Origin: Herbiconiux gentiana
GTDB taxonomy: Bacteria > Actinomycetota > Actinomycetes > Actinomycetales > Microbacteriaceae
DNA length: 64,000 nucleotides
Assembly: GCF_024978135.1 (NCBI RefSeq)
Contig: NZ_JANTEZ010000002.1
Location: 620,001 to 684,000 of the forward strand
Direction: 5' to 3'
A program made the translations under genes and the position numbers. Every line of letters begins with the position of its first letter. The stretch's first letter is position 1. This document shows, in pieces, positions 11,343 to 56,890 of this stretch. The notes below the pieces were generated by a model, which was not told the DNA's origin, did not search any database, and saw only the letters and a list, made by a program, of their open reading frames with translations.

Positions 11343-12304
11343 AGCGTGGTGCCTCCCCCGCGGATGGTCTGCGATTTGGGGTCGAGGGCGTCACGCAGGG
11401 CGTCGCCGACGAAGTTGAACGCGATCACCACGGTGAGGATCGCCAGTCCCGGGAAGACCCCGATCCACCACGCGTCGAAGTTCTGGATCGCATCCGACAC
11501 CATCGAGCCCCACTCGGCGGTCGGCGGCTTCGCCCCGAGCCCGAGGAACGACAGCCCCGACAGCAGCAGGATGGCCGTGCCGATGTCGAGGCTCGCGAGC
11601 ACGAGCACCGGGCCGACGATGTTCGGAGCGATGTCTCGGCCGAGCGAGCGCAGCGGCGAGAAGCCGAGCAACTGGCCCGACACGACGTAGTTCGAGGAGC
11701 GCAAGCCCAGCACGAGACCGCGGGTGAGTCGCGCGTAGGCGGGCCACGACACGATCAGCGCCGCGAGCACCGCGTTCAGCAGCGACGCCCCGAGGGCGGC
11801 CGCGATCACCATGGCCAGGATGACCGTGGGGAACGCCATCACGAGGTCGGTGACGCGCATCGCGACCTCATCGACCGCGCGGCCGAAGAAGCCGGCGATC
11901 GCGCCGACGACGGCGCCGATCAGCACCGACATCACCACGAGCAGCAGGGCGAGCGGGATGGTGACGCGGGCGCCCCAGATCACGCGGGAGAAGACGTCGC
12001 GGCCGAGCGCGTCGGTGCCCATCAGGGTGCCCTCGCCGGGCGCCTGGAGGATGGGCAGGTCCTGCGCGAGCGGGTCGTGCGGGGCGATCACGGGGGCGAG
12101 CACGGCGACGAGGATCCAGAGGACGCCGACGGCGGCACCGAACAGGCCGAGCGGCGCCGACCAGCGGCCGAGCCGCAGGCGCGGGCGACGCCAGCGGGGG
12201 CCGGCGGTGGAAACCGGGTCGAGCATCCCGGCGCCGACACCGTCGCGGGGGCCGGCCGGGGCACCGTCGCGCGGGTCGGGACGGGTGGTTCGCGCATCCG
12301 TCAC
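11339..12304 (-). CDS. Peptide ABC importer permease, DppC type
   Basis: A 321-residue inner-membrane permease. The N-terminal ~45 residues are cytoplasmic and Pro/Arg-rich. TM1 follows (FGAAVGVLWILVAVLAPVIA), then the periplasmic segment with GTDALGRDVFSRV that defines the DppC/OppC N-terminal region. The BPD_transp_1 core has the EAA-like loop around ARLTRGLVLGLRSSNYVVSG and further helices to GDALRDALDPK. It forms the channel with the DppB-type permease. It overlaps both neighbours by 4 bp. Confident family call. Confidence 0.93.
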   Translation of the reverse strand: MTDARTTRPDPRDGAPAGPRDGVGAGMLDPVSTAGPRWRRPRLRLGRWSAPLGLFGAAVGVLWILVAVLAPVIAPHDPLAQDLPILQAPGEGTLMGTDALGRDVFSRVIWGARVTIPLALLLVVMSVLIGAVVGAIAGFFGRAVDEVAMRVTDLVMAFPTVILAMVIAAALGASLLNAVLAALIVSWPAYARLTRGLVLGLRSSNYVVSGQLLGFSPLRSLGRDIAPNIVGPVLVLASLDIGTAILLLSGLSFLGLGAKPPTAEWGSMVSDAIQNFDAWWIGVFPGLAILTVVIAFNFVGDALRDALDPKSQTIRGGGTTL

Positions 12305-13380
12305 GAGGCCAGCCTCACTCTCGGGTCGAGCACGCCGTAGAGCAGGTCGACGATCAGGTTCACGAGCAGATACATCACGCCGATCAGGAGGCCGACGCCC
12401 ATGATGCCGGGCAGGTCGAGGTGCGAGGCGGCCTGGTAGGCGTACGAGCCGATGCCGGGCCAGGCGAAGATGGCCTCGACGAGCACGGTGCCGCTGAGCA
12501 GGCTGCCGAAGGCGAGGCCGACGACGGTGAGAATCGGGATGCTCGCCCCGCGCAGCACGTACGAGAAGATCACCGTGCGGGTCGGCAGGCCCTTGGCCCG
12601 GGCGGCGCGCACGTAGTCCTGGTCGAGGATCTCGAGCACCGCCGTGCGCACGAACCGGGTGAGCAGGCCCACCGTGTAGAGCGTGAGCACGAGCACCGGC
12701 AGGAACAGGTGCGAGGCCGCGTCGAGGAAGGTGTCGAGCTGACCGGCCAGCAGGGCATCCACCGTGTAGAGGCCCGTCACCGTCGGCGGCGTCGTGAAGT
12801 CGCTGCTCAGCCGGCCCGAGCCCGGGGCGATGTGCAGCTGGAAGTAGAAGACGTAGTAGAGCACGAGCGCGAGCCAGAAGGTCGGCACGCTGAGGCCGGC
12901 CAGCGAGACCACGCGCAGCACGTGGTCTGACGCCTTGCCGCGCCGGTACGCGGCGATCGTGCCGAGCACGACGCCGATGATCACGCTGAGCACGATGGCG
13001 CCGAAGGCGATCTCGAGCGTGGCCGGCAGGGCCTTCGCCAGGTCGTCGACCACGGGGTTGTGCGTGGTGGTCGAGACGCCGAGGTCACCGTGCAGCAGGT
13101 TGCCGAGGTAGGTGAAGTACTGCACCACGAGCGGCTGGTCGAGGCCGTAGGTGGCGCGGAACTGGGCGACGATCGCCGGGTCCTCCGCGGCGCGCTGGCC
13201 GAGGGCCGCCGCCACCGGGTCGCCCGGCACGAGGTTCGTCAGCACGAAGGTGACCAGGGTCACACCCACCACGAGCAGCAGCGAGGTGAGCACGCGCCGC
13301 AGCGCGTAGCGGAGGAACGGGTGGGCCGCCCGGCCCCCGCGCGAACGCGGGGACCGGACGGCCTTCGTGCTGGTGGACAC
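12301..13380 (-). CDS. Peptide ABC importer permease, DppB type
   Basis: A 359-residue permease. TM1 is near residue 26-50 (LRRVLTSLLLVVGVTLVTFV) and is followed by LVPGDPVAAALGQRA, typical of DppB/OppB. Five more helices follow, with the ABC-contact loop ILDQDYVRAARAKGLPTRT and a C-terminal DLLYGVLDPRVRL. It lies 3 bp after the substrate-binding protein gene and overlaps the DppC-type permease by 4 bp. With the four flanking genes it makes a complete binding-protein-dependent importer. Confidence 0.93.
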   Translation of the reverse strand: MSTSTKAVRSPRSRGGRAAHPFLRYALRRVLTSLLLVVGVTLVTFVLTNLVPGDPVAAALGQRAAEDPAIVAQFRATYGLDQPLVVQYFTYLGNLLHGDLGVSTTTHNPVVDDLAKALPATLEIAFGAIVLSVIIGVVLGTIAAYRRGKASDHVLRVVSLAGLSVPTFWLALVLYYVFYFQLHIAPGSGRLSSDFTTPPTVTGLYTVDALLAGQLDTFLDAASHLFLPVLVLTLYTVGLLTRFVRTAVLEILDQDYVRAARAKGLPTRTVIFSYVLRGASIPILTVVGLAFGSLLSGTVLVEAIFAWPGIGSYAYQAASHLDLPGIMGVGLLIGVMYLLVNLIVDLLYGVLDPRVRLAS

Positions 13381-43419: not shown

Positions 43420-44004
43420 CTAGAGATCCACGTGCACGACCGACGCGACATCAGCCAACCGCCGCATCGCGTCGCCGGCCTGCTCCTCTCCGGCGAGGGT
43501 CGCAGCGATGAGTCCGAGAACGAGGTCGGCAGCCCAGAGCATGGGCTCGGAGTGGGGCTGCCGGTGTTCGAACCGGAGCGATGGAGTGATCAGCCCACGG
43601 CGTCGAAGGCGGTCGACGGTGCGATCGTCCTTCAGCATCAGGCTGGTGGTGCGGGCTTCGAGGTGCGCCAGTGAGACTCCGCGTCGCTGGAGCTCCCATG
43701 CGAGGCGCTCGAGGCAGACGGACCGGGCGCGCTCCTGCTTGCGGTGGTCCATCGGCGAGGCGATGACGATGAGGATCTCTGCGTCGAAGTGGGCGACCGC
43801 GTCGAGGGCGCGGCGGCGGTGGCGGGCGTCGAGTTCGCGCCAGTGGAGCTTGACGCCCGAGGTGCGGAGGCGTGCGAGGGCGGCGCGGTAGGGGTCGCAC
43901 CGGCCGGGGTCGGCGAGGAGGCCGCCGAGGAGGTACGAGGGGCGGGGGACGCCGACGGTTCGCATGCTCTCGTCGATCCAGGCGTGGAGGATCGGGGCGG
44001 GCAT
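43420..44004 (-). CDS. DUF3800 domain protein
   Basis: 194 residues. The N-terminal WIDESMR is the DUF3800 Asp-Glu-Ser motif, GVKLHWREL is the middle conserved block, and the ADLVLGLIAATL segment closes with the conserved Ala-Asp-Leu. The family has an RNase H-like fold and is often found near mobile or defence genes; activity is unproven. ATG 44004 is preferred: the longer frame runs into the DnaA-box repeat and is Arg/His-rich. It ends at a strong hairpin terminator. Confidence 0.8.
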   Translation of the reverse strand: MPAPILHAWIDESMRTVGVPRPSYLLGGLLADPGRCDPYRAALARLRTSGVKLHWRELDARHRRRALDAVAHFDAEILIVIASPMDHRKQERARSVCLERLAWELQRRGVSLAHLEARTTSLMLKDDRTVDRLRRRGLITPSLRFEHRQPHSEPMLWAADLVLGLIAATLAGEEQAGDAMRRLADVASVVHVDL

Positions 44005-44045
44005 CCGGAGATCGTGGCAACACCGCGGGGTGCGTGGCGTGGCGC

Positions 44046-44109
44046 GGGCCGATCTGTGGATAAGTGGCCCAGGGCGCGAGGACGCCCCGGGCCGATCTGT
44101 GGATAAGTA
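44046..44109. repeat. 43-bp direct repeat carrying two perfect DnaA boxes
   Basis: GGGCCGATCTGTGGATAAGT occurs at 44046 and 44089, and the copies stay similar beyond it. Each contains TGTGGATAA (44055-44063, 44098-44106), the exact complement of the DnaA box TTATCCACA. They lie in the gap between the DUF3800 gene and a small membrane gene, in the same orientation. Confidence 0.75.
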
Positions 44110-44111
44110 GC

Positions 44112-44303
44112 TCAGGGAGTGAGGATGCCGAGGGCCAGCGCGAGGGTGGCGAGGGAGACGCCGGCCAGGGCGACGGCGGTGGTGGCGAGCACCCGCGTGC
44201 GCGCCGGCGTGGCGGGGGCGAGTGCGGGTGCGACGGCGAAGGTGGTGGCCGCCGCATCCGCATGAGTGGATCGAGAGGCAGGGGCGGTGAGCAGGGCGGT
44301 CAT
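44112..44303 (-). CDS. Small single-TM membrane protein
   Basis: 63 residues: Ala/Thr-rich N-terminal half and a C-terminal hydrophobic helix (about 38-61, VLATTAVALAGVSLATLALA). GGAAGGA lies 6 bp before ATG 44303, which supports translation. No family recognised. The stop is 3 bp from the DnaA-box repeat. Confidence 0.55.
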   Translation of the reverse strand: MTALLTAPASRSTHADAAATTFAVAPALAPATPARTRVLATTAVALAGVSLATLALALGILTP

Positions 44304-44428
44304 GAAAAGTCCTTCCGTGGGCGTGACTCCAGACTCCCGCGCCGAGGCGGCGGGCGGATCGTCCCGCGGGACCGCCCCGGCGGTACCCCGGTGCCACGTC
44401 GTCAGTGCGCCTCGACGGTGCCGTGTAG

Positions 44429-45215: not shown

Positions 45216-45884
45216 ATGAGCCAGGACACGGCCACCGAGAACTACCTCAAGGCCATCTACGCCCACACCGAGTGGCAGCCCGTGCCCATCAGCCCCTCGG
45301 TGCTGGCGGGGCGGCTCGGGGTGGCGCCGTCGTCGGTGACCGAGATGGTGAAGAAGCTGGCGGCGGGCGGGATGCTCACCCACGTGCCCTACGGACCGCT
45401 CACCCTCACGGCCGAGGGCCGGTTGCGCGCGATGGGTGTGGTGCGGCGGCACCGTCTGATCGAGACCTGGCTGGTGCGCGAGATGGGCTTCGGCTGGGAC
45501 GAGGTGCACGACGAGGCCGAGGTGCTCGAGCACGCGATCAGCGAGCGGCTGCTCGACGCGATCGACGAGCGGCTCGGGCATCCGGCGCAGGATCCGCACG
45601 GCGACCCCATCCCCACGGCGGCCGGCACCGTGCCGAGCTTCGACGCGCTCCTGCTCGCCCAGGCGCCGGCGGGGCACGAGGGGCGCGTGGTGCGCATCAG
45701 CGACCGCGACCCCGAGCTGCTGCGCACGCTGGCGGCCGAGGGCATCGGGCCGGGCACGGCGGTGCGGGTGACGACGGGGCCGACGGTCACCCTGCACCAG
45801 CTCGAGAGCGAGAGCGACGCGACGGCGTCGGCCGGAACCGAGATCCCGACCGACGCGCTCGACGCGATCTGGCTGACCCCCTAG
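45216..45884 (+). CDS. DtxR/MntR family metal-dependent regulator
   Basis: 222 residues. The HTH (about 5-60) reads ATENYLKAIYAHTEW, LAGRLGVAPSSVTEMVKKLA, followed by the dimerisation domain with LVREMGFGWDEVHDEAEVLEH, which includes metal-site His and Glu residues (H-x-x-A-E-x-x-E-H). The FeoA-like SH3 domain is at about 150-222 (LRTLAAEGIGPGTAVRVT). It binds operator DNA when loaded with Fe2+ or Mn2+. The mntH operator in this window is a natural candidate target (inference). Start ATG 45216; TAGGCT ends 9 bp upstream. Confidence 0.9.
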   Translation: MSQDTATENYLKAIYAHTEWQPVPISPSVLAGRLGVAPSSVTEMVKKLAAGGMLTHVPYGPLTLTAEGRLRAMGVVRRHRLIETWLVREMGFGWDEVHDEAEVLEHAISERLLDAIDERLGHPAQDPHGDPIPTAAGTVPSFDALLLAQAPAGHEGRVVRISDRDPELLRTLAAEGIGPGTAVRVTTGPTVTLHQLESESDATASAGTEIPTDALDAIWLTP

Positions 45885-46402
45885 CCCTCCACCTCCCGCA
45901 AGTGCCGATACTTCCCCTTGAAGTACAGCAGCGGGTCGTGCTTGTGCCACGACGCCGGGCTCATCTCGTTCACCCGCCCGATCACGATGAGGTGGTCACC
46001 GGCCTCGTGCTCGGCCCAGATGTCGCAGTCGAGCCACATCAGGGTGTCGGCGATCACGGGGTTGCCCGCCGCGGTGGGCGACCAGTCGATGCCCGCCCAC
46101 TTGTCGGTGCCCGAGCGCGCGAACTGGTTCGACACGGTGTGCTGGTGGTGCGAGAGCACGTTCACCGAGAACCGTCCGGTCGAGCGGATGCGCGGGTAGG
46201 TCGTCGAGGTCGTCATCACGCTGAACGACACCAGCGGCGGCTCGGTCGAGACCGAGTAGAACGACTGGCAGGTGAAGCCGACGGGGGCGCCGTCCTCGAT
46301 GCCGCCGATGATGGTGATGCCCGAGGCGTAGTGCCCGAGCGTGTCGCGGAACACCCGCGGATCGATGGGTGTCCCGTGGGCGATGTCCGGTGCGATTGTC
46401 AT
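45881..46402 (-). CDS. Flavin reductase (RutF/HpaC-like) of monooxygenase cluster
   Basis: 173 residues of the flavin_reduct family. Seen: FRDTLGHYASGITIIGG, the GFTCQSFYSVSTEPPLVSFS block, and GRFSVNVLSHHQ. It supplies reduced FMN, using NAD(P)H, to two-component monooxygenases. ATG 46402 has AAGGAG 6 bp upstream; the longer frame to 46426 adds 8 residues within the FMN reductase gene. It is 16 bp downstream of that gene on the same strand. It is convergent with the DtxR gene, with 4 bp overlap of stops. Confidence 0.88.
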   Translation of the reverse strand: MTIAPDIAHGTPIDPRVFRDTLGHYASGITIIGGIEDGAPVGFTCQSFYSVSTEPPLVSFSVMTTSTTYPRIRSTGRFSVNVLSHHQHTVSNQFARSGTDKWAGIDWSPTAAGNPVIADTLMWLDCDIWAEHEAGDHLIVIGRVNEMSPASWHKHDPLLYFKGKYRHLREVEG

Positions 46403-46418
46403 GTCCGTCTCCTTGCGG

Positions 46419-46961
46419 TCACGCAACCGGTGCGGAGGGAGAAGCGGTGGCGTCCGCCACGCGGGCCAGCCGCGCGAGGTTCCGGGCGTACTCCGCTGCG
46501 GCCTGGGTGACGATCTCGTCGAGATGGTCCATCTGGCCGGCCACGAAGTAGAGCCCCCGCCCGGGAACGACCGCGCCGAGCTCGACGAGCAGCGGTGCGA
46601 GGTTCACGGTCGGGCCCATGGCGTGGGTGAGGTCGCCCCCGGTGTGCACCGGGATCGCCGTCACCCCCGCGAGCCCGTTCGCGGGATAGCGGTCGAGGAA
46701 CGCCTTGAGGAGCCCCGTGTACGTCGCCTTGTAGGTGGGCGACGCGAACACGGCCAGGTCGCTCGAGGCGACCCGCTCGTTCAGGGCGGCCATCACGTCG
46801 GAGGGCCACGCGAAGATCTCCGCCGTGTGATCGGCGAGGTCGATGATCTCGAGCTCGTACGATCCGGGAGCGAGCAGCTTCTCGACCAGGGTCTCGGCGA
46901 CCCTGAGCGTGCGCGACTTCGGCTTGGGGTTGCCGACGACGATCGTGACCTTCAGTGCCAT
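46419..46961 (-). CDS. NAD(P)H-dependent FMN reductase (SsuE/MsuE-like)
   Basis: 180 residues with a flavodoxin-like fold. Seen: VTIVVGNPKPKSRTLRVAET (phosphate loop of the SsuE family), DLAVFASPTYKATYTGLLKA (active-site loop with Pro-Thr-Tyr-Lys, as in SsuE) and GVTAIPVHTGGDLTHAMG. It is the second flavin reductase of the cluster, perhaps matched to one of two monooxygenases. Divergent from the lipoprotein gene across 402 bp. SsuE-type enzymes often serve sulfonate use, so a sulfur role is an alternative. Confidence 0.88.
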   Translation of the reverse strand: MALKVTIVVGNPKPKSRTLRVAETLVEKLLAPGSYELEIIDLADHTAEIFAWPSDVMAALNERVASSDLAVFASPTYKATYTGLLKAFLDRYPANGLAGVTAIPVHTGGDLTHAMGPTVNLAPLLVELGAVVPGRGLYFVAGQMDHLDEIVTQAAAEYARNLARLARVADATASPSAPVA

Positions 46962-47045
46962 TGCTTCTCACTTCATACCGATTGACAGGAAATGAGAGGG
47001 CGGCGCAGCGAGCCGAAGCGCGAGGCGTCCACCTCTCCCAACACT

Positions 47046-47169
47046 CCACCGAGGTCTTGTGGCTCGGTGGGCCCGCAACGGCTTACGTTGCCCTTCCAGT
47101 ATCGGCACCCGACGTTTCGGGCGTATTTCGCCAGTCACAATCCGTCAGAGAGCGGATGCGCATCCGCTC
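47046..47169. promoter_or_regulatory. Series of hairpins in the 402-bp divergent gap
   Basis: The gap 46962-47363 has no credible gene. On the plus strand: hairpin 1, CCACCGAG...CTCGGTGG (47046-47070, 8-bp arms); hairpin 2, GCAACG-GCTTA-CGTTGC (47075-47091); hairpin 3, CCCGA-CGTT-TCGGG (47108-47121); and a 20-bp perfect palindrome from 47150 to 47169 (GAGCGGATGC then GCATCCGCTC). The first three could be a structured leader or cis-regulatory RNA; the palindrome could be an operator. No known riboswitch motif is recognised. Confidence 0.45.
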
Positions 47170-47363
47170 GTCAGGCCGACGCCGCCGGTGGCGCAGCCGC
47201 TCTCCCGCCGCGCGTTCTGGCGCGGAGGAAGTGGCGCAACCGATCCTTCGCGGTGCCGAAACACCGGTGCAACGACGGCAGGACAGACTGACTCCGCTCG
47301 CACCACCTGCACCATTCCCGCGCATCCGCCCCGCCGGAGCGCCCTTCGACAGATGGAGACGCC

Positions 47364-48545
47364 ATGCCCCGATCCGTTCCCCGCCTCGCCTCAGCCCTCG
47401 GTCTCATGGCCGTCGGAGCGCTGGCGCTCAGCGCCTGCAGCTCCGGCAGTTCGGCCGAGGAGTCCGGCGGCTCCACCGCCCCGGCCGCCGCCGTCGGCGA
47501 CGTCGACCTCTCGGGCGTCTGCCCCGCCACCGTCGTCATCCAGACCGGGTGGAACCCCGAGGCCGAGCACGGTCACCTCTACGAGCTGCTCGGGCCCGAC
47601 CCGGTGATCGATGCGACCGCCAAGTCGGTCTCGGGCCCGCTCTACTCCGGCGGCGAGTACACCGGCGTCGACGTTCAGATCCGCGCCGGCGGCCCGGCGA
47701 CCGGTTTCCAGCCCGTGTCGAGCCTGATGTACACCGATCCCGACATCCTGCTCGGCTACGTCTCCACCGACGAGTCGATCGCGCAGTCGGCCGAGATGCC
47801 CACCACGGCCGTGTTCGCCTCGCACGACATCAGCCCCCTGATGATCATGTGGGACCCGGAGACCTACCCCGACGTGAAGACCGTGCCCGAGCTGGTGGAG
47901 TCGGGAGCGATCATCCGCTACTTCGCCGACACCGCGTACATGCAGTACCTGACCTCGGCCGGTGTCATCCCGGCCGGGCAGACCGACGCCTCCTACGACG
48001 GCACCCCGGCCAACTTCGTGGCCGCCGACGGCAAGGACGCGCAGCAGGGCTACGCTTCGGCAGAGCCGTACATCTACGAGAACGAGGTGGAGAACTGGAT
48101 GAAGCCCGTCGCCTACCAGCTCATCGACGACCTCGGCTTCCGCCCCTACCAGGACCCGGTGGTCGTTCGCTCGGCCGACGTCGCCGATCAGGCCGACTGC
48201 CTGAAGGCCATCGTGCCGGTGCTGCAGCAGGCGGAGGTCGACTACTTCGCCGACCCCGCTGAGGCGAACTCGCTCATCCTCGACCTGGCCGAGCAGTACG
48301 ACACCGGCTGGGTGTACTCCCAGGGCGTCGCCGACTACGCGGTGAAGACCATGATCGAGGACGGCATCTCGGGCAACGGCGACAACGATACCCTCGGCGA
48401 CTTCGACGAGGCGCGCGTGCAGGACCTGATGAACAAGGTGATCCCCGTCTACACCGAGCAGGGCGTGACCCCGGCCGACGGCCTCACCCCCGGCGACCTC
48501 GTGACGAACGAGTTCATCGACACGACGATCGGGATGACCGACTGA
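47364..48545 (+). CDS. Orphan ABC substrate-binding lipoprotein (NMT1/THI5-like)
   Basis: 393 residues. The signal peptide ends in lipobox LALSACSS (Cys ~25), so a lipoprotein. The mature part starts VCPATVVIQTGWNPEAEHGH, followed by IRAGGPATGFQPVSSL, DILLGYVSTDESIAQS and MPTTAVFASHDISPLMIMWD: type II periplasmic binding fold of the NMT1/THI5 group, which binds thiamine precursors, riboflavin, taurine or nitrate-like ligands. No permease or ATPase gene is nearby, so it must borrow a transporter or serve as a sensor. GGAG in ATGGAGACGCC precedes the ATG. Ligand unknown. Confidence 0.82.
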   Translation: MPRSVPRLASALGLMAVGALALSACSSGSSAEESGGSTAPAAAVGDVDLSGVCPATVVIQTGWNPEAEHGHLYELLGPDPVIDATAKSVSGPLYSGGEYTGVDVQIRAGGPATGFQPVSSLMYTDPDILLGYVSTDESIAQSAEMPTTAVFASHDISPLMIMWDPETYPDVKTVPELVESGAIIRYFADTAYMQYLTSAGVIPAGQTDASYDGTPANFVAADGKDAQQGYASAEPYIYENEVENWMKPVAYQLIDDLGFRPYQDPVVVRSADVADQADCLKAIVPVLQQAEVDYFADPAEANSLILDLAEQYDTGWVYSQGVADYAVKTMIEDGISGNGDNDTLGDFDEARVQDLMNKVIPVYTEQGVTPADGLTPGDLVTNEFIDTTIGMTD

Positions 48546-48586
48546 CCGAGCGCACTCCCGGCCCCCTCGCGGGGCGCCCGCTGGGC

Positions 48587-49801
48587 ATGAACGCGCAGGC
48601 GATCCTCGTCTGCGCGTTCATCGCGTCGGCGCAGATGACCTGGGGCGTCATCGTGCCGGCCCTGCCCCTGCTGGTCGAGCGCTTCGGCATCGGCACCGGC
48701 AGCATCGGCCTCCTGCTCGCGGCGTTCGCGATCGGGCGCGTGATCGCGAACGTCCCCGCCGGTCTCGCTCTGCGGCGCGTCCCGCCCCGGCGCTTCCTGC
48801 AGATCGTGTCGGTTCTGCTGGCGGTGGTCACGGCGGTGACGGGGCTGCTGCCGAGCGAGCCGCTGCTCCTCGCCGCCCGGCTGGTGGCGGGGGTGCTCGG
48901 CGGCGCCGCCGTGACGATCGGCTTCTCGGTGCTCGTGGCGGGCGCCCCGGCCGACCGCCGTGGCCGCACCATGTCGACGGCCACCGTGGTGATGATGAGC
49001 GGGTCCGCCGTCGGCGCCCTCGTGGGCGGCGTCGCGGTCACGGTGCTCGGGGTGGCCGGCGCGTTCGCCGTGGCGGTCGTGCCCCTCGTCGCCTGTCTGC
49101 TCGTCGACCTGGTGCGGCCGGCGGCCGGGTACTGGGCGGCGTTCAGTCCGTCGGCCGAGGCGGGGGCGACCAAGGCGGGGGCGGCGACGGATGCCCGATC
49201 CGCACCCTCGGGCACACCTCGCCCTCGCCCCGCCGGCACCGGTGGGCTCGTGGTGGGCCTGATCGCCATTTCGTTCGCCACCTACCTGGCCCGGTTCGCC
49301 GGCGAGCAGGGCCTGATCCCGGTGCTCGCCTACGATTCGGGCGGGCTCACTCCCCTCACCCTCGGTGTCGCCATGGCCGTGGGCACCGTGGTCAGCATCG
49401 CCGCCCTGCCGCTGGTCGGGCACGTCGTGGACCGCGGCGCGCGCCTGGCTGTGCTGCTGCCCTCGGCGCTCGTCGGCGCCGGCGCCCTGCTGCTGTTCCC
49501 GATCGCCACCGAGCCGCTCGCCTTCGGTGCCGCGATCGTCGTGTACTACGTCTCCACCAGCATCGCCGGGGTGGTGCCGAACGTGCTCACGAGCGAGCGG
49601 TTCGAGCCCGCGGCGGCGGGAGCCGTGGTCGGGTTCACCCGAACGGCCGGTGACATCGGCTCGGCGGTGGGCCCGCTCGCGGTGTTCGCGCTCGCCGACG
49701 CGGCGGGCGCGGAGGCGGCGGTGGCGGTGATCGCGGCCGTGCTCGTCGTGGCGCTGGTGCTGCTGGCCCCGGCGGTGGCGCGCCGCCCGGCCGCGCCGTA
49801 G
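48587..49801 (+). CDS. Major facilitator superfamily transporter
   Basis: 404 residues with 12 TM helices. ATG 48587 begins with MNAQAILVCAFIASAQMTWG; the inter-helix 2-3 loop ALRRVPPRRFL resembles MFS motif A (G-x-x-x-D-R-x-G-R-R-x-x) only loosely. The long central loop (about 180-225) is Ala/Pro-rich. The start is 41 bp after the lipoprotein stop, so they are one transcription unit. It could import the substrate or export a product; direction is not evident. Confidence 0.85.
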   Translation: MNAQAILVCAFIASAQMTWGVIVPALPLLVERFGIGTGSIGLLLAAFAIGRVIANVPAGLALRRVPPRRFLQIVSVLLAVVTAVTGLLPSEPLLLAARLVAGVLGGAAVTIGFSVLVAGAPADRRGRTMSTATVVMMSGSAVGALVGGVAVTVLGVAGAFAVAVVPLVACLLVDLVRPAAGYWAAFSPSAEAGATKAGAATDARSAPSGTPRPRPAGTGGLVVGLIAISFATYLARFAGEQGLIPVLAYDSGGLTPLTLGVAMAVGTVVSIAALPLVGHVVDRGARLAVLLPSALVGAGALLLFPIATEPLAFGAAIVVYYVSTSIAGVVPNVLTSERFEPAAAGAVVGFTRTAGDIGSAVGPLAVFALADAAGAEAAVAVIAAVLVVALVLLAPAVARRPAAP

Positions 49802-49855
49802 GCCGACCGCGCCCGCCGCCAGCGCCGCAGCGCGACCGCGCCGAAGCCCCGGCCC

Positions 49856-50686
49856 CTAAAGATCCGTCCGCGACGGCTCCAGCGCGATCCGCACCTGATC
49901 GGAGCGCTGGCGCCCGTGGTAGATCATCACCACGGTGCCGCCCGGCTCCCGCACGGTCGTCTCAATGAACAGCAGGGGTGTGCCCACCTCGGTCGACAGC
50001 AGCTCCGCCGCCGAGAGGTCGGCCGAGATCGCGCTGATCTGCCGGTCGGCCGTCAGGCGCTCGTGCCCGAATCGGCTCTCGATGATCTCGAAGACGTCGT
50101 CGTTCGCGTCGGCCCGCCCGAACTCGTCGCCCGGCCGCAGCGGCAGGTAGTAGGTGCGCAGCGAACCGGGGCGCCCCTGGTAGAGGATGACCCGCTCGAA
50201 CACGGCCATCCGGTCGACCGTGTCGTCGAACAGCGCCGCCATCGGGGTCGGCACCGCGGTGGTCTCGCGCCAGCCGATCAGCACGTAGTCGTGGTCGACG
50301 GGCGCCGGGACGATCTTCAGCTGATCGAGCAGCCGGTCGGTGCGCCAGGTCAGCGGCCGCGGATGCGCGTACGTCCCCTGCCCGGCGGTGCGGCCGATGG
50401 TGTTCTCCTGCACGAGCATCTGCATCGCGATGCGGGCGGTGTTCCTGGTGCAGGAGAACTCGCGCGCGATCTCCTCGTCGCTCGGCAGCCGCTCCCCGTC
50501 GGTGGCGCCCGAGAGCACGAACGCCGAGACGAGGTCGCGCAGCCGCCGCGCCTCGTCCTGCCGGCGGTGCTGGCCGAGGTCGAGGATCTTGTCCTCGGTG
50601 AAGCTGCGCCGGCGCGGCGGCCCGGAGGCGCGGCCGAGGCCGGCCGGTGTGCGCCCGGCGGGCTCGATCGGGTTCTCGGGACTCAC
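49856..50686 (-). CDS. GntR family regulator with UTRA domain
   Basis: 276 residues. The GntR winged HTH is at about 45-110 (LPSDEEIAREFSCTRNTARI and GTYAHPRP). A UTRA ligand-binding domain (HutC type) occupies about 125-270, including VFERVILYQGRPGSLRTYYL. Lies between the MFS gene (convergent) and the monooxygenase genes; the gene is 12 bp after the NtaA-type monooxygenase on the same strand, so it may be co-transcribed with it. It probably senses the substrate or an intermediate (inference). GTG 50686 is the start; the N-terminal ~45 residues are Pro/Arg-rich. Confidence 0.87.
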   Translation of the reverse strand: MSPENPIEPAGRTPAGLGRASGPPRRRSFTEDKILDLGQHRRQDEARRLRDLVSAFVLSGATDGERLPSDEEIAREFSCTRNTARIAMQMLVQENTIGRTAGQGTYAHPRPLTWRTDRLLDQLKIVPAPVDHDYVLIGWRETTAVPTPMAALFDDTVDRMAVFERVILYQGRPGSLRTYYLPLRPGDEFGRADANDDVFEIIESRFGHERLTADRQISAISADLSAAELLSTEVGTPLLFIETTVREPGGTVVMIYHGRQRSDQVRIALEPSRTDL

Positions 50687-50698
50687 GGTCTCAGACTC

Positions 50699-52045
50699 TC
50701 ACGCGAAGGCGGGCACCCCGAGGGTGTCACGGAGGGTCGTGCCGTCGTACCGGGTGCGGAACCGCCCGCGCCGCTGCAGCTCGGGCACGAGCAGCCCCAC
50801 CACGTCGATCAGGTCGCGGGGTGTGACCTGCGGATGCGCGACCATGAAGCCGCCGCGACTGCCGGTGGCCTCGTACGACTCCTCGAGGTAGTCGGCCACC
50901 TCGGCCGCGCTCCCGGCCACGGTGTGCTCGTAGCCGGTGGCCACCTTCCACAGCGACTCGAAGAACTCCTCGCGGCTCAGCTCCGCGTCGGCGCCGTGCT
51001 CGTTCACGAGATCGCGGAAGCCCATCGGGCTCGCCTGCTTCGCGACCACCTCGGCCGTCAGCTCGGTGAGCGTGAAGCGGGACGGGAGCTTGGCGAAGTC
51101 GTAGCCGGTGTTGTTCGCGAACTGCGCGGCGGCGGCCTCGGGCGGGAGGAGGTCGGCGAGCTGCTGCTTGCGGCGGAGGGCGTCGTCGGTCGTCTCCCCG
51201 ACGATCAGCTGCAGGTCCCAGAGGATGCCGACCCGCGACGGGTCGCGACCCTGCTCGAGGAGGGCCTCGTCGAGCGCCGCACGGTGTTTCGCGCGGTCGC
51301 CGTTGTCGAAGGCTCCGCCGAACACCACGTCGGCGAACGTCGACGAGGCCCGGATGCCGCGCGGCGACCCGCCCGCCTGGATCAGCACCGGCGCCTGCTG
51401 CGGACTCGGTACCGAGTTCAGTGGGCCCTTCACCTGGAAGAACTCGCCCGCGTGGTCGATCGGCCGGATCCGGCCGGGCTCGGCGACCATCCCCGTCTCC
51501 CGGTCCCAGACGAAGGCGTCCTGGTCGACGCTGCGCCAGAGCTCCTGGCAGACGGTGACGAACTCCTCCATCCGGCGGTAGCGGGCGTCGTGGTCCATCA
51601 GCGCGTCGAAGCCGTAGTTGGCCGCATCCGCTCCCCGGCTGGAGGCCACCACGTTGAAGGCCATCCGGCCCTGGGTGACGAGGTCGAGCGAGTTCAGCAG
51701 CCGGGCGACGTAGAACGGATGCATGAAGGTCGACGAGTAGGTCAGCCCGAAGCCGATGTGCTGCGTCTGCTGCGCGAGGGCCGCGATGAACGGGCTCATG
51801 TCCTGCCGCGGGTAGCCGATGCCCCACTCCACGGCCGCGTCGATCGAGTCGCCGTAGGTGGACGGGATGCCGGAGCCGTCGCCGAAGAACACCATGTCGA
51901 GGCAGCCGCGCTCGGCGGCGAGCAGCAGCTCGGTGTACATCCGCAGGTCGGGGAAGGTGCGGCCCTCCCACGACCCGGGCAGCCGCCACCGGCCCTGGTG
52001 GTGCGAGAAGGAGAGGTCGAGGGCGAGGCTCATCTGGTAGGGCAC
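50699..52045 (-). CDS. NtaA/SnaA/DszA-type FMNH2-dependent monooxygenase
   Basis: 448 residues, a TIM-barrel bacterial luciferase-family enzyme. Seen: LTYSSTFMHPFYVARLLNSL, GRMAFNVVASSRGADAANYG (the family's flavin/phosphate loop), VLIQAGGSPRGIRASS and HAGEFFQVKGPLNSVPSPQ. The last two blocks are the NtaA/EmoA/DszA signature (nitrilotriacetate, EDTA, dibenzothiophene sulfone, pristinamycin). It needs reduced FMN from a partner reductase; two such genes lie at 45881 and 46419. The exact substrate is not deducible. It lies 6 bp after the RutA-like gene. Confidence 0.9.
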   Translation of the reverse strand: MPYQMSLALDLSFSHHQGRWRLPGSWEGRTFPDLRMYTELLLAAERGCLDMVFFGDGSGIPSTYGDSIDAAVEWGIGYPRQDMSPFIAALAQQTQHIGFGLTYSSTFMHPFYVARLLNSLDLVTQGRMAFNVVASSRGADAANYGFDALMDHDARYRRMEEFVTVCQELWRSVDQDAFVWDRETGMVAEPGRIRPIDHAGEFFQVKGPLNSVPSPQQAPVLIQAGGSPRGIRASSTFADVVFGGAFDNGDRAKHRAALDEALLEQGRDPSRVGILWDLQLIVGETTDDALRRKQQLADLLPPEAAAAQFANNTGYDFAKLPSRFTLTELTAEVVAKQASPMGFRDLVNEHGADAELSREEFFESLWKVATGYEHTVAGSAAEVADYLEESYEATGSRGGFMVAHPQVTPRDLIDVVGLLVPELQRRGRFRTRYDGTTLRDTLGVPAFA

Positions 52046-52051
52046 GGGCGG

Positions 52052-53119
52052 TCAGCCTTTCGTCGGCAGGTGGTCGAGCAGGGGCATGACCTCGGTGCCG
52101 AAGCGCTCGAGGCCCTCCTCGAAGTCGTCGAAGGTGAGCATCGTGCCGGCCGTTCCGGGCACCGCCGCGATGGCGTTGAGGTGGTCGGCCACGGTCTGCG
52201 GCGATCCGACGAGGGCGCGACCGCCGTAGAACGGCGAGACGTCGGCGCGGTGGCTCGCGGCCACGGCCGCGCTCGAGCCGTCGGTGCTGGTGTCGTTGGA
52301 GTACTCGCGCACCATCCCCTCCACCGCGCCCCGGTCGACCCCGCGCTGGTAGAGCTCGACCTTGCGGGCCGCATCGGCATCCGTGTCGCCCATCACGAGG
52401 AGGGTCGTCGCGAACGAGCCGGGTGTGCGGCCGAGGCTCTCGCTCTCGGCGGCGAGGTGGGCGTTCGAGGCGGCCACCTCCTCGGCGCTCTGGCCCGAGC
52501 CGAAGTGGTAGTCGGCGTACTCGGCCACGAAGCGGCGGCCGCGCGGCGAGGAGCCGGCCGAGATGAGGTCGATGTGCCCGACGGGGGTCGGCAGCACCTC
52601 GCAGTCCTCGATGTCGAAGTACTCGCCGTGGAAGGTGACGCGGCCGGTCTCCCACGCGGTGAGCAGGATCTGGGTGAACTCGCTGAGGTAGTCGTAGCGG
52701 TAGCCGTAGTAGTCGTCACCGCGCCACGCGCCCATCTGCGCGTACTCGCTGCGGTTCCAGCCCGCCACCAGGTTGATGCCGAAGCGGCCGCCCGAGACCT
52801 CGTCGATCAGCTGCGCCATCTTCGCCACCACGATCGGGTTGTAGCTGAGCGGGGAGACGGTGGCGTAGAGCTTGATGGTGCTCGTGATCGGGGCGAGCGA
52901 CGCCATCAGGGTCATCGGGTCGATCGTGTGGTTCCAGTGCCGGGTCTCGCCGCCGTAGCCGCGGTACTTCAGCATCGCGAGGGCGAAGTCGAGGCCGTGG
53001 TGCTCGGCCTTCTCGACGATGCGGCGCTGCAGGGCGAAGGTCGGCTCGTACTGCGGCGAGGTGGTGGAGAGGATCCAGCCGTTGTTGCCGACGGGGAGGA
53101 AGACGCCGTAGCTGACCAT
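52052..53119 (-). CDS. RutA-like FMNH2-dependent pyrimidine-type monooxygenase
   Basis: 355 residues, bacterial luciferase family, closest in motifs to RutA: YGVFLPVGNNGWILSTTSPQ, EKAEHHGLDFALAMLKYRGY, then FGINLVAGWNRSEYAQMG and GTAGTMLTFDDFEEGLERFG. RutA opens the uracil ring using a flavin N5-oxygen adduct. Here the other rut genes are absent and the next gene is asparaginase-like, so the substrate may be a different cyclic amide or N-heterocycle (inference). AGGAGCACCACC precedes the ATG. It begins a tight run of monooxygenase-monooxygenase-GntR. Confidence 0.9.
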   Translation of the reverse strand: MVSYGVFLPVGNNGWILSTTSPQYEPTFALQRRIVEKAEHHGLDFALAMLKYRGYGGETRHWNHTIDPMTLMASLAPITSTIKLYATVSPLSYNPIVVAKMAQLIDEVSGGRFGINLVAGWNRSEYAQMGAWRGDDYYGYRYDYLSEFTQILLTAWETGRVTFHGEYFDIEDCEVLPTPVGHIDLISAGSSPRGRRFVAEYADYHFGSGQSAEEVAASNAHLAAESESLGRTPGSFATTLLVMGDTDADAARKVELYQRGVDRGAVEGMVREYSNDTSTDGSSAAVAASHRADVSPFYGGRALVGSPQTVADHLNAIAAVPGTAGTMLTFDDFEEGLERFGTEVMPLLDHLPTKG

Positions 53120-53151
53120 GGTGGTGCTCCTGTTCTGCGGGGGTGGCGCGG

Positions 53152-54822
53152 CTAGTGGGTGTCGAAGACGGTCTGGTACCCGGCCACCGCGGCACGGATG
53201 GCGTCGAGCTCGGCCGGGGTCGGCGCCTCCGGGTCGGCGGGCAGCGGCAGCGCACCGAATTTGAGCAGGCAGGCCATCAGCAGGATGCGGGCCTTCGGTG
53301 CCGAGAGGTTGCTGCCGCGGATGAACAGGCCGCCGATCGTCGACTGCCCGAACGCGTAGCCGCCACCGCCGCGGCCGACCGCCACCACGGGCATCCCTCG
53401 GAAGACGCCCTTCAGCAGCGCCGCCCGCATGGACTCGTAGACACCGCCGTACGGCGCGGAGCCCTCGGCCACCAGACCGGAGAGCGGGTGGTCGCGCAGG
53501 TTCTTCTCGATCCGGGCCAGGATCTCGACCTCGCTGTCGGCGCTGTCGCTGAAGTCGTCCTGCCCGTAGTTGACGTAGCGGGCGATGGTCACCTTCGGCA
53601 TCGCCTCGGGGCGGAGGTGACCGGCGTCGTCTCGGGTCACGACGGCGTCGCCGTGGAGGCCGGGCACCGCATCCGGGAGCCGGTCGAGGCGCAGCACCGA
53701 GGTGGAGGTGTGGCGGGCGACCGGCACGAAGGAGAGCACCGGGTCCTCGACGGTGTTGCCCACGATGCCGCCGTGGCCGCCGTAGGCGATGTAGCCGCCG
53801 GGACGCGCATCCGCCTTCTGCACCTCGCGGCTGGTGAAGATCTGGCCGTTCTGGATCATCACCGCACCGACCCGGTCGTCGCCGTGCTCGTCGGCCCAGA
53901 CGCCCGACGCGATGTAGTTGACCGACTGCACGAGGTTGTGGTCGCCGTCGTTGCCGAAGACGCCGTGGCCGTACTGCGAGCAGTTGCCGATCAACGGGCG
54001 GCGGGTCGGGATGAGGAGGTTGAGCCAGTAGACGGTCTCCTCGGTGGTGGGGCTGCCCTCGAGCCAGATGGCGCCGTCGTAGTCTCCGCCGGTGAGCGTG
54101 TCGTAGACGATGTTGGTGAGCGAGGCCAGCGTGGGCAGCGCGGGCTCCTGGCGCATCGGCATGTACGGGAAGAAGTCCTCGCCCAGCACCTCGGGCGGCA
54201 GGTCGCCCGGCTCGGTGCCGCGGCGCGCGGTGTCGGTGCGCTCGGCCGCGGGCTGCCCCTTCGTGTAGCCGCCGGAGGGCGCGGCGCGCACGAAGTCGAA
54301 GTCGGCCACGCCGCTCATCAGGTTGTTGCCGCCGTAGCCGTCGAGGCCGAAGCGGTCGATCTCGGCCACGATGCGCGAGGCGTCGGGGTAGAACAGCTGC
54401 CGGGCGGTGCCGGCGTCGTCGAACGGCCCGTCCCAGGGCTCGCCGTTCGCCTGCGTGGCCGCGTAGGGCAACGGGAACGGCCCCTTCGCCGGGTCGAGCG
54501 TCACCTCGTACACGGGCGTCCAGCCGTCGTGCTCGGTCGCGCTGAACTCACCGGTCGCCGGGTCGAGCCAGCCGTCGACGGGGCCGTAGAGCTCCCGGGC
54601 GTCCTTCTCGAGCGGATGCGCGGAGAACGCCTCGACGTAGGCGGTGACCGGCGCCGCCAGCCGCTGCGCACGCAACGACTCCGGCAGGCTCTCGTCGGCG
54701 CCGGCGAGCCCGCGCGCCTGTCGCACGGACTGGCTGGTGCGCAGAGCCGCACTGTTCTGGATGGTGGCGCGAGGCCCCGAGAAGATCACCACGGAGGCCC
54801 GGGAGGCGGGAGAGAAGGTCAC
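53152..54822 (-). CDS. Divergent asparaginase-like amidohydrolase
   Basis: 556 residues from GTG 54822, far longer than the ~330 of type II asparaginases. The first strand ASVVIFSGPRATIQ (10-22) matches the N-terminal GGTI strand but lacks the Gly-Gly. Residues ~30-230 are an extra region. AIWLEGSPTTEETVYWLNLL (251-270) aligns with the HGTDT(M/L)EET block; His, Thr and Asp become Glu, Ser and Pro, so the second catalytic Thr-Asp is lost. GAVMIQNGQIFTSREVQK (319-336) matches the strand and Lys of the family. Likely an amide hydrolase with an altered active site. TACTCT (54829-54834) ends 6 bp upstream of the start. Confidence 0.7.
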   Translation of the reverse strand: MTFSPASRASVVIFSGPRATIQNSAALRTSQSVRQARGLAGADESLPESLRAQRLAAPVTAYVEAFSAHPLEKDARELYGPVDGWLDPATGEFSATEHDGWTPVYEVTLDPAKGPFPLPYAATQANGEPWDGPFDDAGTARQLFYPDASRIVAEIDRFGLDGYGGNNLMSGVADFDFVRAAPSGGYTKGQPAAERTDTARRGTEPGDLPPEVLGEDFFPYMPMRQEPALPTLASLTNIVYDTLTGGDYDGAIWLEGSPTTEETVYWLNLLIPTRRPLIGNCSQYGHGVFGNDGDHNLVQSVNYIASGVWADEHGDDRVGAVMIQNGQIFTSREVQKADARPGGYIAYGGHGGIVGNTVEDPVLSFVPVARHTSTSVLRLDRLPDAVPGLHGDAVVTRDDAGHLRPEAMPKVTIARYVNYGQDDFSDSADSEVEILARIEKNLRDHPLSGLVAEGSAPYGGVYESMRAALLKGVFRGMPVVAVGRGGGGYAFGQSTIGGLFIRGSNLSAPKARILLMACLLKFGALPLPADPEAPTPAELDAIRAAVAGYQTVFDTH

Positions 54823-54967
54823 GCTGGAAGAGTAGGACGCGCCTGTTTCACCGGCGTTGCGTGGATGTGTTGACCGCGCTTCGCCACCGCGCACGGCCCG
54901 CAGGGCCCGGAATCACGCGGGCGGGGCTCGGCGTGGGTGGGGCTGCGCCGGTTCTAAGCTGAGGCCC

Positions 54968-55861
54968 GTGCTGATCCGCGACGGCTTCCCCGGGCAGCGA
55001 CTGCGGGTGCTTCCGAGGCCCCGGGTCGCCGAGGCGCTGGCGGCTCCGATCACGAGGCGGATGCTCGTGACCGACGCCGGCCATTTCCCCCACGCCGCGG
55101 CGCACGGCCGCGATCGGCCCCGGGGCGCGGAGGAGGTGGTGGTCATCCTCTGCACCGGAGGGGCCGGCCGGCTCGAGGTGCGGGGTGACGAGCATCCGAT
55201 GGCACCGGGCGTGGTCGCCGTCATACCGCGCGGCGAACCGCACCGCTACCGTGCCGATCCGCGCGACCCCTGGACGATCTGGTGGATGCACGTGACCGGC
55301 GGCGACGCCGACGACCTCGCGGCGGCCATCACCCGGCCTTCGGACGACTTCGCGCCCGTGCTGCAGGTGCACGACCCCTACGCCGCGAAGTCGGCCCTGG
55401 AGCACGCCCTCGTCTCGCTGGAGCGGGACGAAACGGTGGCGAGCCTCGTGTCGGCCTCGGGTGCCGCCTGGGGTCTGCTCGCCCAGCTCGCCGCCGATCG
55501 GGCGCGGGGCGCGAATCAGGCGGGCGACCCGATCCTCGCGGCGCAGGACTACCTGCGGGAGAACCTCGAGACCACGACCGGCGTGGCCGAGCTCGCCGCC
55601 ATCGCAGGGCTCAGCACCTCGCACTTCTCGGCCCGGTTCCGCCAGGCCTCGGGGATGGGCGTCGTGGAGTACCACAAGCGCCTCCGCAGCGCCCGGGCGC
55701 GGGAGCTGCTGATCACGACGGAGGCGACGGTGGCCGACATCGGGCGGGCCGTGGGGTACGAGGACGCGTTCTACTTCTCACGGCAGTTCCGCGCGATCAA
55801 CGGCACGAGCCCGAGCGGCTATCGGGCGGCCTTCCGGGATCGCTCGCGCCCGCACGACTGA
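54968..55861 (+). CDS. AraC family regulator (cupin plus HTH)
   Basis: 297 residues. The N-terminal AraC-type cupin domain (about 20-150) contains VVVILCTGGAGRLEV and DPWTIWWMHVTG, the arabinose-binding-domain pattern. The C-terminal two HTHs are VAELAAIAGLSTSHFSARFR and VADIGRAVGYEDAFYFSRQF. Divergent from the asparaginase-like gene across 145 bp; it likely regulates that gene and the pathway (inference). The GTG start is supported by TAAGCT (54955-54960), 7 bp upstream, so the transcript is probably leaderless. Confidence 0.88.
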   Translation: MLIRDGFPGQRLRVLPRPRVAEALAAPITRRMLVTDAGHFPHAAAHGRDRPRGAEEVVVILCTGGAGRLEVRGDEHPMAPGVVAVIPRGEPHRYRADPRDPWTIWWMHVTGGDADDLAAAITRPSDDFAPVLQVHDPYAAKSALEHALVSLERDETVASLVSASGAAWGLLAQLAADRARGANQAGDPILAAQDYLRENLETTTGVAELAAIAGLSTSHFSARFRQASGMGVVEYHKRLRSARARELLITTEATVADIGRAVGYEDAFYFSRQFRAINGTSPSGYRAAFRDRSRPHD

Positions 55862-55867
55862 CCGGGC

Positions 55868-55940
55868 GAGCCGCCTCAGCGCACCTGCTTCGGGAGCCGC
55901 CTCAGCGCACCTGCTCAGGAGCCGCCTCAGCGCACCTGCT
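55868..55940. repeat. Three tandem copies over the pdxY stop codon
   Basis: A 22-bp unit occurs at 55868, 55894 and 55919 (spacing 26 and 25 bp). The last copy is the true 3' end of the pyridoxal kinase gene (codons Gln-Val-Arg-stop, read on the minus strand); the other two are non-coding duplicates in the gap to the AraC stop. Confidence 0.85.
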
Positions 55941-56778
55941 CGGCCGTGAACTGCAGTCGCGGATGCGCGTAGAACTCCTGCGCCTCGACCAGCTGCAGCT
56001 CCCGCCGCCCCGAGCGGTGGGTGGTCTCGATCAGGTCGAAGACGCTCGAGACCGTGCGCTCCAGCGCCGTCGCCGCCGACCCCGTCGAGCGGTAGTGCGC
56101 CGTGAACAGCGCCGCCGTGACGTCTCCGGAGCCGTTCGCCTTGAACGGCAGCAGCGGGGTCTGCACGATCCAGGCCCCGGCGTCGTCGACGACGAGCATC
56201 TCGATGGTGTCGGGCGCGCGGTCGGGGCGCTCGACGCTCGTGACGAGCACGGTCGACGGCCCCATCGCGCGGGCGAGGTCGGCCGAGGCGAGGGTCGACT
56301 CGATCGAGCCGGGCTCGGTGCCGGTGAGGAAGCCGAGCTCGAACTGGTTCGGGGTGATGATGTCGGCCACCGGCACGACGCGGTCGCGCAGCAGATCGGG
56401 GATCTCGGGTGCGACGAAGCAGCCCGACTTCGCGTTGCCCATCACCGGGTCGCACGCGTACACGGCCGACGGGTTCGCGGCCTTGACGCGCTGCACCGCG
56501 TCGACGATCACGTCGCCGATGCCCACGCCGCCCTGGTACCCCGACAGCACCACGTCGATCTCCGACAGCACGCCGCGCTCCTCGATGCCGACGATCACGT
56601 CGTGCACGTCCTCGGGCGAGATCAGCGGCCCACGCCAGGCGCCGTACCCCGTGTGGTTCGAGAAGTTCACCGTGTAGACGGGCAGCACCTCCACCCCGAT
56701 GCGCTGGAGGGGGAACACGGCCGCGGAGTTGCCGACGTGCCCGTAGGCCACGGCCGACTGAATCGAGAGGATCTTCAC
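55927..56778 (-). CDS. pdxY: Pyridoxal kinase
   Basis: 283 residues, ribokinase-like PLP salvage kinase phosphorylating pyridoxal with ATP. Seen: VKILSIQSAVAYGHVGNSAA (substrate loop), GYQGGVGIGDVIVDAV, YACDPVMGNAKSGCF, ITPNQFELGFLTG, and the ATP/phosphate-site PFKANGSGDVTAALF with the catalytic Asp in GSGD. GTG 56778 is chosen by GGAGG about 8 bp upstream and by family length (~283). It stands just upstream of the cysteine desulfurase, itself a PLP enzyme, in the same direction. Confidence 0.92.
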   Translation of the reverse strand: MKILSIQSAVAYGHVGNSAAVFPLQRIGVEVLPVYTVNFSNHTGYGAWRGPLISPEDVHDVIVGIEERGVLSEIDVVLSGYQGGVGIGDVIVDAVQRVKAANPSAVYACDPVMGNAKSGCFVAPEIPDLLRDRVVPVADIITPNQFELGFLTGTEPGSIESTLASADLARAMGPSTVLVTSVERPDRAPDTIEMLVVDDAGAWIVQTPLLPFKANGSGDVTAALFTAHYRSTGSAATALERTVSSVFDLIETTHRSGRRELQLVEAQEFYAHPRLQFTAEQVR

Positions 56779-56890
56779 CCGACTATCCTCCGCCCTCCGG
56801 AGGCCTCCCGTCACCTCGACCGGCAGAACCCCAGCGCTCACACGGCCTCCGGCCGGGCGCCGCGGGGCCGCTGGGCCAAGACCGGCGCGG

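Follow-up and report, generated by a model that had tools for sequence, protein, structure and literature searches.

A candidate nitrogen-scavenging module in Herbiconiux gentiana pairing RutA- and NtaA-type flavin monooxygenases with an asparaginase-fold protein

Three described systems frame the locus reported here. The Rut pathway of Escherichia coli (rutABCDEFG) includes RutA, a flavin mononucleotide (FMN) monooxygenase for which residues of the O2 pocket and their roles are described in PMC7662398 and PMC10005588; RutA, DszA, and HcbA1 are described examples of flavin-N5-oxide chemistry (PMC7662398). The other two are the two-component monooxygenases of the NtaA/DszA/DmoA type (TIGR03860) and the type II L-asparaginases. 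Relatives of all three lie together in H. gentiana, within a window of 64,000 nucleotides (contig NZ_JANTEZ010000002.1, positions 620,001 to 684,000 of the forward strand), where one operon encodes an asparaginase-fold protein (here called AspL), a RutA-type and an NtaA-type monooxygenase, and a GntR-type regulator, next to genes for a lipoprotein and a major facilitator superfamily (MFS) transporter. We favor, with moderate confidence, the reading that this block is a nitrogen-scavenging catabolic module, in which a cyclic amide or N-heterocycle is opened by oxidation and ammonia is released through AspL. That one operon combines relatives of RutA and DszA with a candidate amide hydrolase of a new kind, and that a comparable set is carried by a conjugative plasmid from another phylum, would point to a nitrogen-acquisition route that has had no prior assignment. 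The gene set is small and testable, and it opens a way into an asparaginase-like family for which a single genome scan gave 136 candidate places.

An earlier note on this DNA had described nine genes as one ten-kilobase cluster. All nine lie where the note had them and match the families it named (Table 1), but strand and spacing divide them into four units: the two reductases (minus strand, overlapping by 8 bp), the lipoprotein-MFS pair (plus strand, 41 bp gap), the AspL-RutA-NtaA-GntR operon (minus strand, intergenic gaps of 32, 6, and 12 bp), and the AraC gene (plus strand). The conserved unit, smaller than the cluster, is the AspL-RutA-NtaA-GntR operon with the lipoprotein-MFS pair that converges on it. 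This emerged from a survey of AspL contexts in 82 loci (L031-L112), some of them on contigs of only 3 to 5 kb that are too short to tell. RutA- and NtaA-type genes stand near AspL in four loci, the Herbiconiux loci L033, L034, and L035 and the Aquibium locus L056, and the GntR, MFS, and lipoprotein genes are also present in all three of the Herbiconiux loci. Co-conservation, named in advance by the note as a test of its pathway, thus holds for six genes and fails for the reductases and the AraC gene, whose proposed membership is not borne out: they were not found in the L034 or L035 stretches and occur near the block only in L033, one of the three other Herbiconiux loci, where the reductases lie beside it, AraC is about 3.6 kb off, and the window's neighbors past the reductases are shared. 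The genes flanking the block in L034 and L035 differ from those of the window. Since the frame upstream of GTG 54822 is interrupted in L034 and L035, the AspL start is most likely at this codon (556 amino acids) and not at 54894.

Table 1. Features of the H. gentiana locus, with positions in the window
Feature	Coordinates	Strand	Evidence or remark
HsaB/RutF-type flavin reductase; probable FMNH2 supplier, neighbor not conserved	45881-46426	-	PF01613; HsaB 187.8 bits and RutF 74.8 bits, both below cut-off
SsuE-type NADPH:FMN reductase (FMN_red); probable FMNH2 supplier, neighbor not conserved	46419-46961	-	PF03358
Promoter motif upstream of lipoprotein, GTGGCGCAAC-N17-GAAAC-N6-GCAAC	47231-47273	+	Same motif type as upstream of AspL; exact in window, L034, and L035; one mismatch in L033
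Lipoprotein, divergent NMT1/THI5-type substrate-binding protein	47364-48545	+	Pairwise similarity to Aquibium and A. vitis cluster binding proteins
MFS transporter	48587-49801	+	PF07690
GntR/UTRA regulator, last gene of the operon	49856-50686	-	PF07702, PF00392
NtaA/DmoA/DszA-type FMN monooxygenase	50699-52045	-	TIGR03860 368.7 bits, above cut-off 279.7
RutA-type FMN monooxygenase; proposed oxygenolytic amide-ring opening	52052-53119	-	TIGR03612 379.7 bits, below cut-off 498.3
AspL, asparaginase-fold protein, 556 amino acids, GTG start; proposed amide hydrolase	53152-54822	-	PF00710 31.5 bits (cut-off 22.5); PF17763 26.0 bits (below cut-off 34.6)
Promoter motif upstream of AspL, GTGGCGAAGC-N17-GCAAC-N6-GAAAC	54845-54887	-	Exact in window, L033, L034, and L035; GlnR-box-like 11-bp phasing
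AraC-type regulator, divergent from AspL; probably outside the module	54857-55861	+	PF12833, PF02311

The enzyme trio also occurs in two genera outside Herbiconiux. In Aquibium, RutA-type, NtaA-type, and AspL genes (38%, 58%, and 47% identity to the window proteins) are accompanied by genes for an NMT1-type binding protein and ATP-binding cassette (ABC) components. In Agrobacterium vitis, plasmid CP146243.1, which came from a plasmid search and is typed as conjugative, carries in order a flavin reductase, GntR, binding protein, ATPase, permease, RutA-type enzyme, NtaA, a hypothetical protein, and AspL. Identities between the window proteins and these two sets are 58 to 60% for NtaA (60% in A. 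vitis), 45 to 48% for AspL, and 34 to 38% for RutA. The window NtaA is a full member of TIGR03860, above the curated cut-off, and it is set apart within that family by its closeness to the Aquibium and A. vitis proteins, as the other plasmid relatives found are about 36% identical or less. The genome scan for AspL detects only places with one of two short peptide patterns; among the best 80 of 136 confirmed places, which were kept, the nearest are the Herbiconiux loci at 95, 84, and 82% identity. Among 393 other genomes of the class, two yielded a full-length AspL. A search for NtaA relatives at an E value of 1e-100 or better gave two genomes, counting that of the window, among 396 of the phylum; with the Aquibium protein as query, at 1e-120, two of the 385 genomes searched in the class of Aquibium had one, again with the query's own genome counted.

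Over 354 alignment columns, the RutA-type protein of the window and E. coli RutA share 44.4% identity. All five O2-pocket residues of the E. coli enzyme (Leu65, Thr105, Asn134, Val136, and Phe224) are identical in the alignment and Trp139 is kept. By analogy, we consider it likely that the protein would work by flavin-N5-oxide chemistry. The Aquibium and A. vitis proteins retain Thr105, Asn134, Val136, and Phe224, with Phe at Leu65 and Asn at Trp139. The set resembles the Rut pathway in this conserved pocket, in the flavin reductase genes nearby, in a hydrolase whose proposed step follows ring opening, and in its nitrogen-scavenging logic. It differs in the added NtaA-type monooxygenase, in AspL with its asparaginase fold replacing RutB, in uptake by lipoprotein and MFS transporter, and in a RutA-type enzyme that scores below the family cut-off and has Arg at Glu292. 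The earlier note saw no rutB to rutE, and indeed neither RutB-RutE nor RutG is among the nine cluster proteins, and the two isochorismatase-family matches in the genome are both on contigs other than the window's. A Pfam scan of 20 window proteins likewise showed no canonical Rut genes, and no dihydropyrimidinase, which was looked for in these 20 only.

AspL has an asparaginase fold according to its AlphaFold2 model (predicted local distance difference test, 81.7; predicted template modeling score, 0.84). The best Foldseek match of the model is an L-asparaginase (E = 1.1e-14; template modeling score of 0.74 over the target), and a PDB search with a profile of 37 AspL relatives also arrives at asparaginases (E = 1.2e-21). 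Four residues, Thr20, Ser257, Pro258, and Lys336, are invariant in all 37 sequences; we take them to correspond to Thr12, Thr89, Asp90, and Lys162 of E. coli asparaginase, with Thr20 matched to Thr12 by motif only and the others by profile alignment. AspL thus shares with type II L-asparaginases the fold and the equivalents of Thr12, Thr89 (as Ser), and Lys162, but has Pro in place of the catalytic Asp90, more than 200 extra residues, and only 39.9 bits against TIGR00520, below the cut-off of 314.3. It also differs in gene context, which combines it with acetamidase, urease, nitrile hydratase, or monooxygenases. The next gene upstream on the same strand in other genomes encodes an acetamidase/formamidase (FmdA/AmdA) in 14 of 44 cases and an Amidase in three; the next one downstream encodes UreE in 10 of 42, a PhzF-like protein in four, and the nitrile hydratase alpha subunit in three, and the remainder are diverse. 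A plasmid of Rhizobium tumorigenes has the order acetamidase-AspL-urease. We propose that AspL is an amide hydrolase mainly because its neighbors elsewhere are amide and nitrogen genes. The two annotated plasmid matches are named only "asparaginase domain-containing protein."

Other contexts of AspL were also seen. In one actinobacterium (L031, 9949-11685), AspL stands beside genes that by eye resemble a tripartite transporter, an ABC importer, and UbiD, perhaps reflecting another catabolic use. In L032 (9295-10962), and probably in L070, L089, L097, and L100, it lies beside phenazine-type genes, possibly in a biosynthetic role: four of the 42 downstream neighbors match PhzC-PhzF (which four was judged by length), and the L032 genes resemble by eye PhzD/PhzE and asparagine synthase.

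A second set in the same genome suggests that the hydrolase slot is flexible. At about 493.9-497.1 kb of G000:C1, an isochorismatase-family gene lies between genes for RutA' and NtaA', which are 36% and 56% identical to their counterparts in the first set. Like the first, this set has a single hydrolase alongside its RutA- and NtaA-type enzymes, plus an NMT1-type binding protein (stretch L123, G000:C1 484000-503999); unlike it, the hydrolase has an isochorismatase fold, a LacI-like regulator and a permease lie nearby (by eye), there is an additional NtaA-family enzyme (also by eye), and the gene order is different. Other Herbiconiux loci (L125, L126) also pair RutA' with NtaA', as does L124, from a different genus of the family, and in L124 the two genes once more flank an isochorismatase gene. 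Isochorismatases of this second-set type resemble biuret amidohydrolase (BiuH) and RutB, far below both cut-offs. Because a RutB-like protein here occupies the place of AspL, the hydrolase of RutA- and NtaA-containing sets may be drawn from either family. We can only tentatively extend this to a general picture, in which AspL would be an uncharacterized asparaginase-fold family, with Pro for Asp90, repeatedly recruited as the ammonia-releasing step (with nitrile hydratase, with acetamidase and urease, or with paired flavin monooxygenases), and the trio of RutA, NtaA, and hydrolase a general, mobile route for opening cyclic amides apart from Rut, with AspL and RutB-like hydrolases interchangeable.

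The operon and the convergent pair share a promoter motif, GTGGCGMARC-N17-GMAAC-N6-GMAAC, which is exact at seven of the eight sites in the four Herbiconiux loci. Across the 3.85-Mb genome, the long motif with up to two mismatches has three matches: the two cluster sites, which are exact, and a site elsewhere with two mismatches. The shuffled expectation within the window is 0.04 for the long form at three mismatches and 0 for a shortened, 11-bp-phased form. GMAAC units spaced 11 bp apart fit GlnR boxes as given in a review (PMC10704036); the cluster sites read GMAAC-N6-GMAAC plus GMARC at 11-bp phasing, compared with gTnAc-n6-GaAAc or Gc/aAAC variants for the GlnR box. The Streptomyces coelicolor GlnR pattern has three matches in the genome, two of them with three mismatches, and one control match. 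The best, with two mismatches, lies ahead of a gene whose product, as read from its sequence, starts like glutamine synthetase. The two cluster sites are not among the genome matches to this pattern at up to three mismatches. As they miss it, and as our motif was built from its own sites, we put forward GlnR control of both promoters only as a proposal.

We propose the following sequence of events. The lipoprotein and the MFS transporter would import a small nitrogen-containing ring compound, such as a cyclic amide, an imide, or a substituted pyrimidine-like N-heterocycle. The NtaA-type enzyme would oxidize or dealkylate it, after which the RutA-type enzyme, with FMNH2 and O2, could cut the ring amide, probably via a flavin-N5-oxygen species. 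AspL would then hydrolyze the exposed open-chain amide or ureide to ammonia, a task of the kind that RutB performs in the Rut pathway. A flavin reductase would provide the FMNH2, GntR may sense a pathway compound, and the GlnR-like box at both promoters could couple expression to nitrogen limitation. What we observe are the genes with their families and conservation, the motif, and the RutA O2-pocket residues; we infer in this scheme the order of the two oxygenations, the reaction of AspL, GlnR control, and the substrate class. The lipoprotein, which the earlier note called an orphan, indeed has no Pfam match of its own kind (none to PF09084 at an E value of 5), but it is distantly related to the NMT1/THI5-type binding proteins of the other two clusters, both PF09084 members (Aquibium, 25% identity, E = 7e-8; A. 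vitis, 27%, E = 1e-11). No match between it and the binding protein of the second set was listed at an E value of 1. The MFS protein of Herbiconiux stands where the Aquibium and A. vitis sets carry ABC permease and ATPase genes.

Several findings weigh against a single conserved nitrogen-scavenging route. Pro occupies the position of the catalytic Asp90 in all 37 AspL sequences, and the activity of AspL is therefore not assured. AspL occurs mostly without monooxygenases (with both in four of the 82 loci), and NtaA relatives at 54% and 60% identity (G815, two copies) have no RutA neighbor in the stretches read. The Herbiconiux RutA-type protein is nearer to E. coli RutA (44%) than to its counterparts in Aquibium (38%) and A. 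vitis (34%), and in a 23-row tree, to which long-branch warnings apply, the Herbiconiux RutA proteins adjoin the E. coli RutA group from outside and the two alphaproteobacterial ones sit on a separate long branch. Because of this split and the lower mutual identity, the RutA slot may not carry out the same reaction in every set. The GntR regulators of the window and of A. vitis have no BLAST match between them and the flavin reductases of the two clusters are 26% identical; for this reason, judging by sequence, both were probably recruited separately. As for the promoters, the motif pattern was derived from these very sites after the regions had been seen. Its backward control also has three genome matches at up to two mismatches, and the shortened form has three exact genome matches, two of them at the cluster, versus two for its backward control. 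A scan of 1,131 promoter pairs (part of all pairs) did not single out the two regions, which are identical at 25 of 43 positions, with other pairs reaching up to 31. Since that identity test gave no support, the motif rests on conservation in four loci and the rarity of exact matches. Finally, no guess at the substrate beyond its class could be supported.

An unlikely alternative is that the block scavenges sulfur or carbon, with the NtaA-type enzyme cleaving a C-S or C-C bond, the RutA-type enzyme acting like its SfnG and SsuD relatives, and AspL merely trimming a side-chain amide. Its basis is that the solved structures nearest to the window NtaA in the PDB are DszA/BdsA (232 bits), LadA (211), and DmoA (200), that the RutA-type protein also scores against the SfnG (153.8 bits) and SsuD models, and that an SsuE-type reductase is nearby. 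However, the RutA score is far above that for SfnG and the Thr105/Asn134/Trp139 set is kept, AspL relatives adjoin amide, urease, and nitrile hydratase genes, and the promoter motif resembles a nitrogen-control box. It is quite unlikely that the genes are loosely related neighbors, serving general amide or xenobiotic detoxification and not one pathway. Such an assembly would explain why the reductases and AraC are not co-conserved, why AspL and NtaA each occur without the other, and why the RutA-type members of three lineages fall on different branches, but the six genes stay grouped in four Herbiconiux loci, two with different flanks, a like trio is found in two other genera, and both units carry one promoter motif. 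That uracil or thymine itself is the substrate, in a variant Rut pathway with AspL in place of RutB, is very unlikely, since the conserved pocket, Trp139, and 44% identity to E. coli RutA, together with a flavin reductase distantly like RutF (E = 5e-13), are set against a RutA-type score below the cut-off, the Arg at Glu292, a tree position outside the E. coli RutA group, the lack of RutC-E among the nine proteins, and an NtaA partner that uracil cleavage does not need.

For the substrate of the proposed nitrogen-scavenging module, an N-heterocycle or cyclic amide remains our best guess as to class, as the earlier note had it. Literature searches turned up no paper assigning a substrate to such a gene set. 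The note's view that the set forms a "complete route" is not supported, as the sufficiency of these enzymes rests on nothing shown. Riboflavin breakdown products, which the note had listed for growth tests, were rejected. In the reconstituted riboflavin/lumichrome pathway (PMC12746152), hydrolytic pyrimidine degradation goes together with a P450, a xanthine oxidase, and Rieske and catechol dioxygenases; none of these is among the nine cluster proteins, which weakens the idea. Nitrilotriacetate or ethylenediaminetetraacetate is not favored either, as, among PDB entries, the nitrilotriacetate and ethylenediaminetetraacetate monooxygenases give the window NtaA lower scores than DszA, LadA, and DmoA do. 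The Arthrobacter 4-hydroxypyridine pathway was rejected because luciferase, asparaginase, and flavin reductase appear nowhere in the main text of PMC7356986.

Some further observations concern the surroundings. A pyridoxal-kinase-like neighbor (55927-56841) was considered as a member of the module and rejected, since the three Herbiconiux loci gave no match to it. In L034, a DUF222-type gene (11460-12857) is inserted between GntR and MFS and is 72% similar to a DUF222 gene at 4755-6068 of the window. In an alphaproteobacterium (L131, 2497-3846), an NtaA relative (54%) lies near what by eye appears to be a histidine-utilization cluster. The genome of 3.85 Mb has 23 luciferase-like monooxygenase matches. 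On the minus strand of the window, at 43420-44397, a predicted gene of 325 amino acids lacks a Pfam match, and a 71% similar copy adjoins the block in L033.

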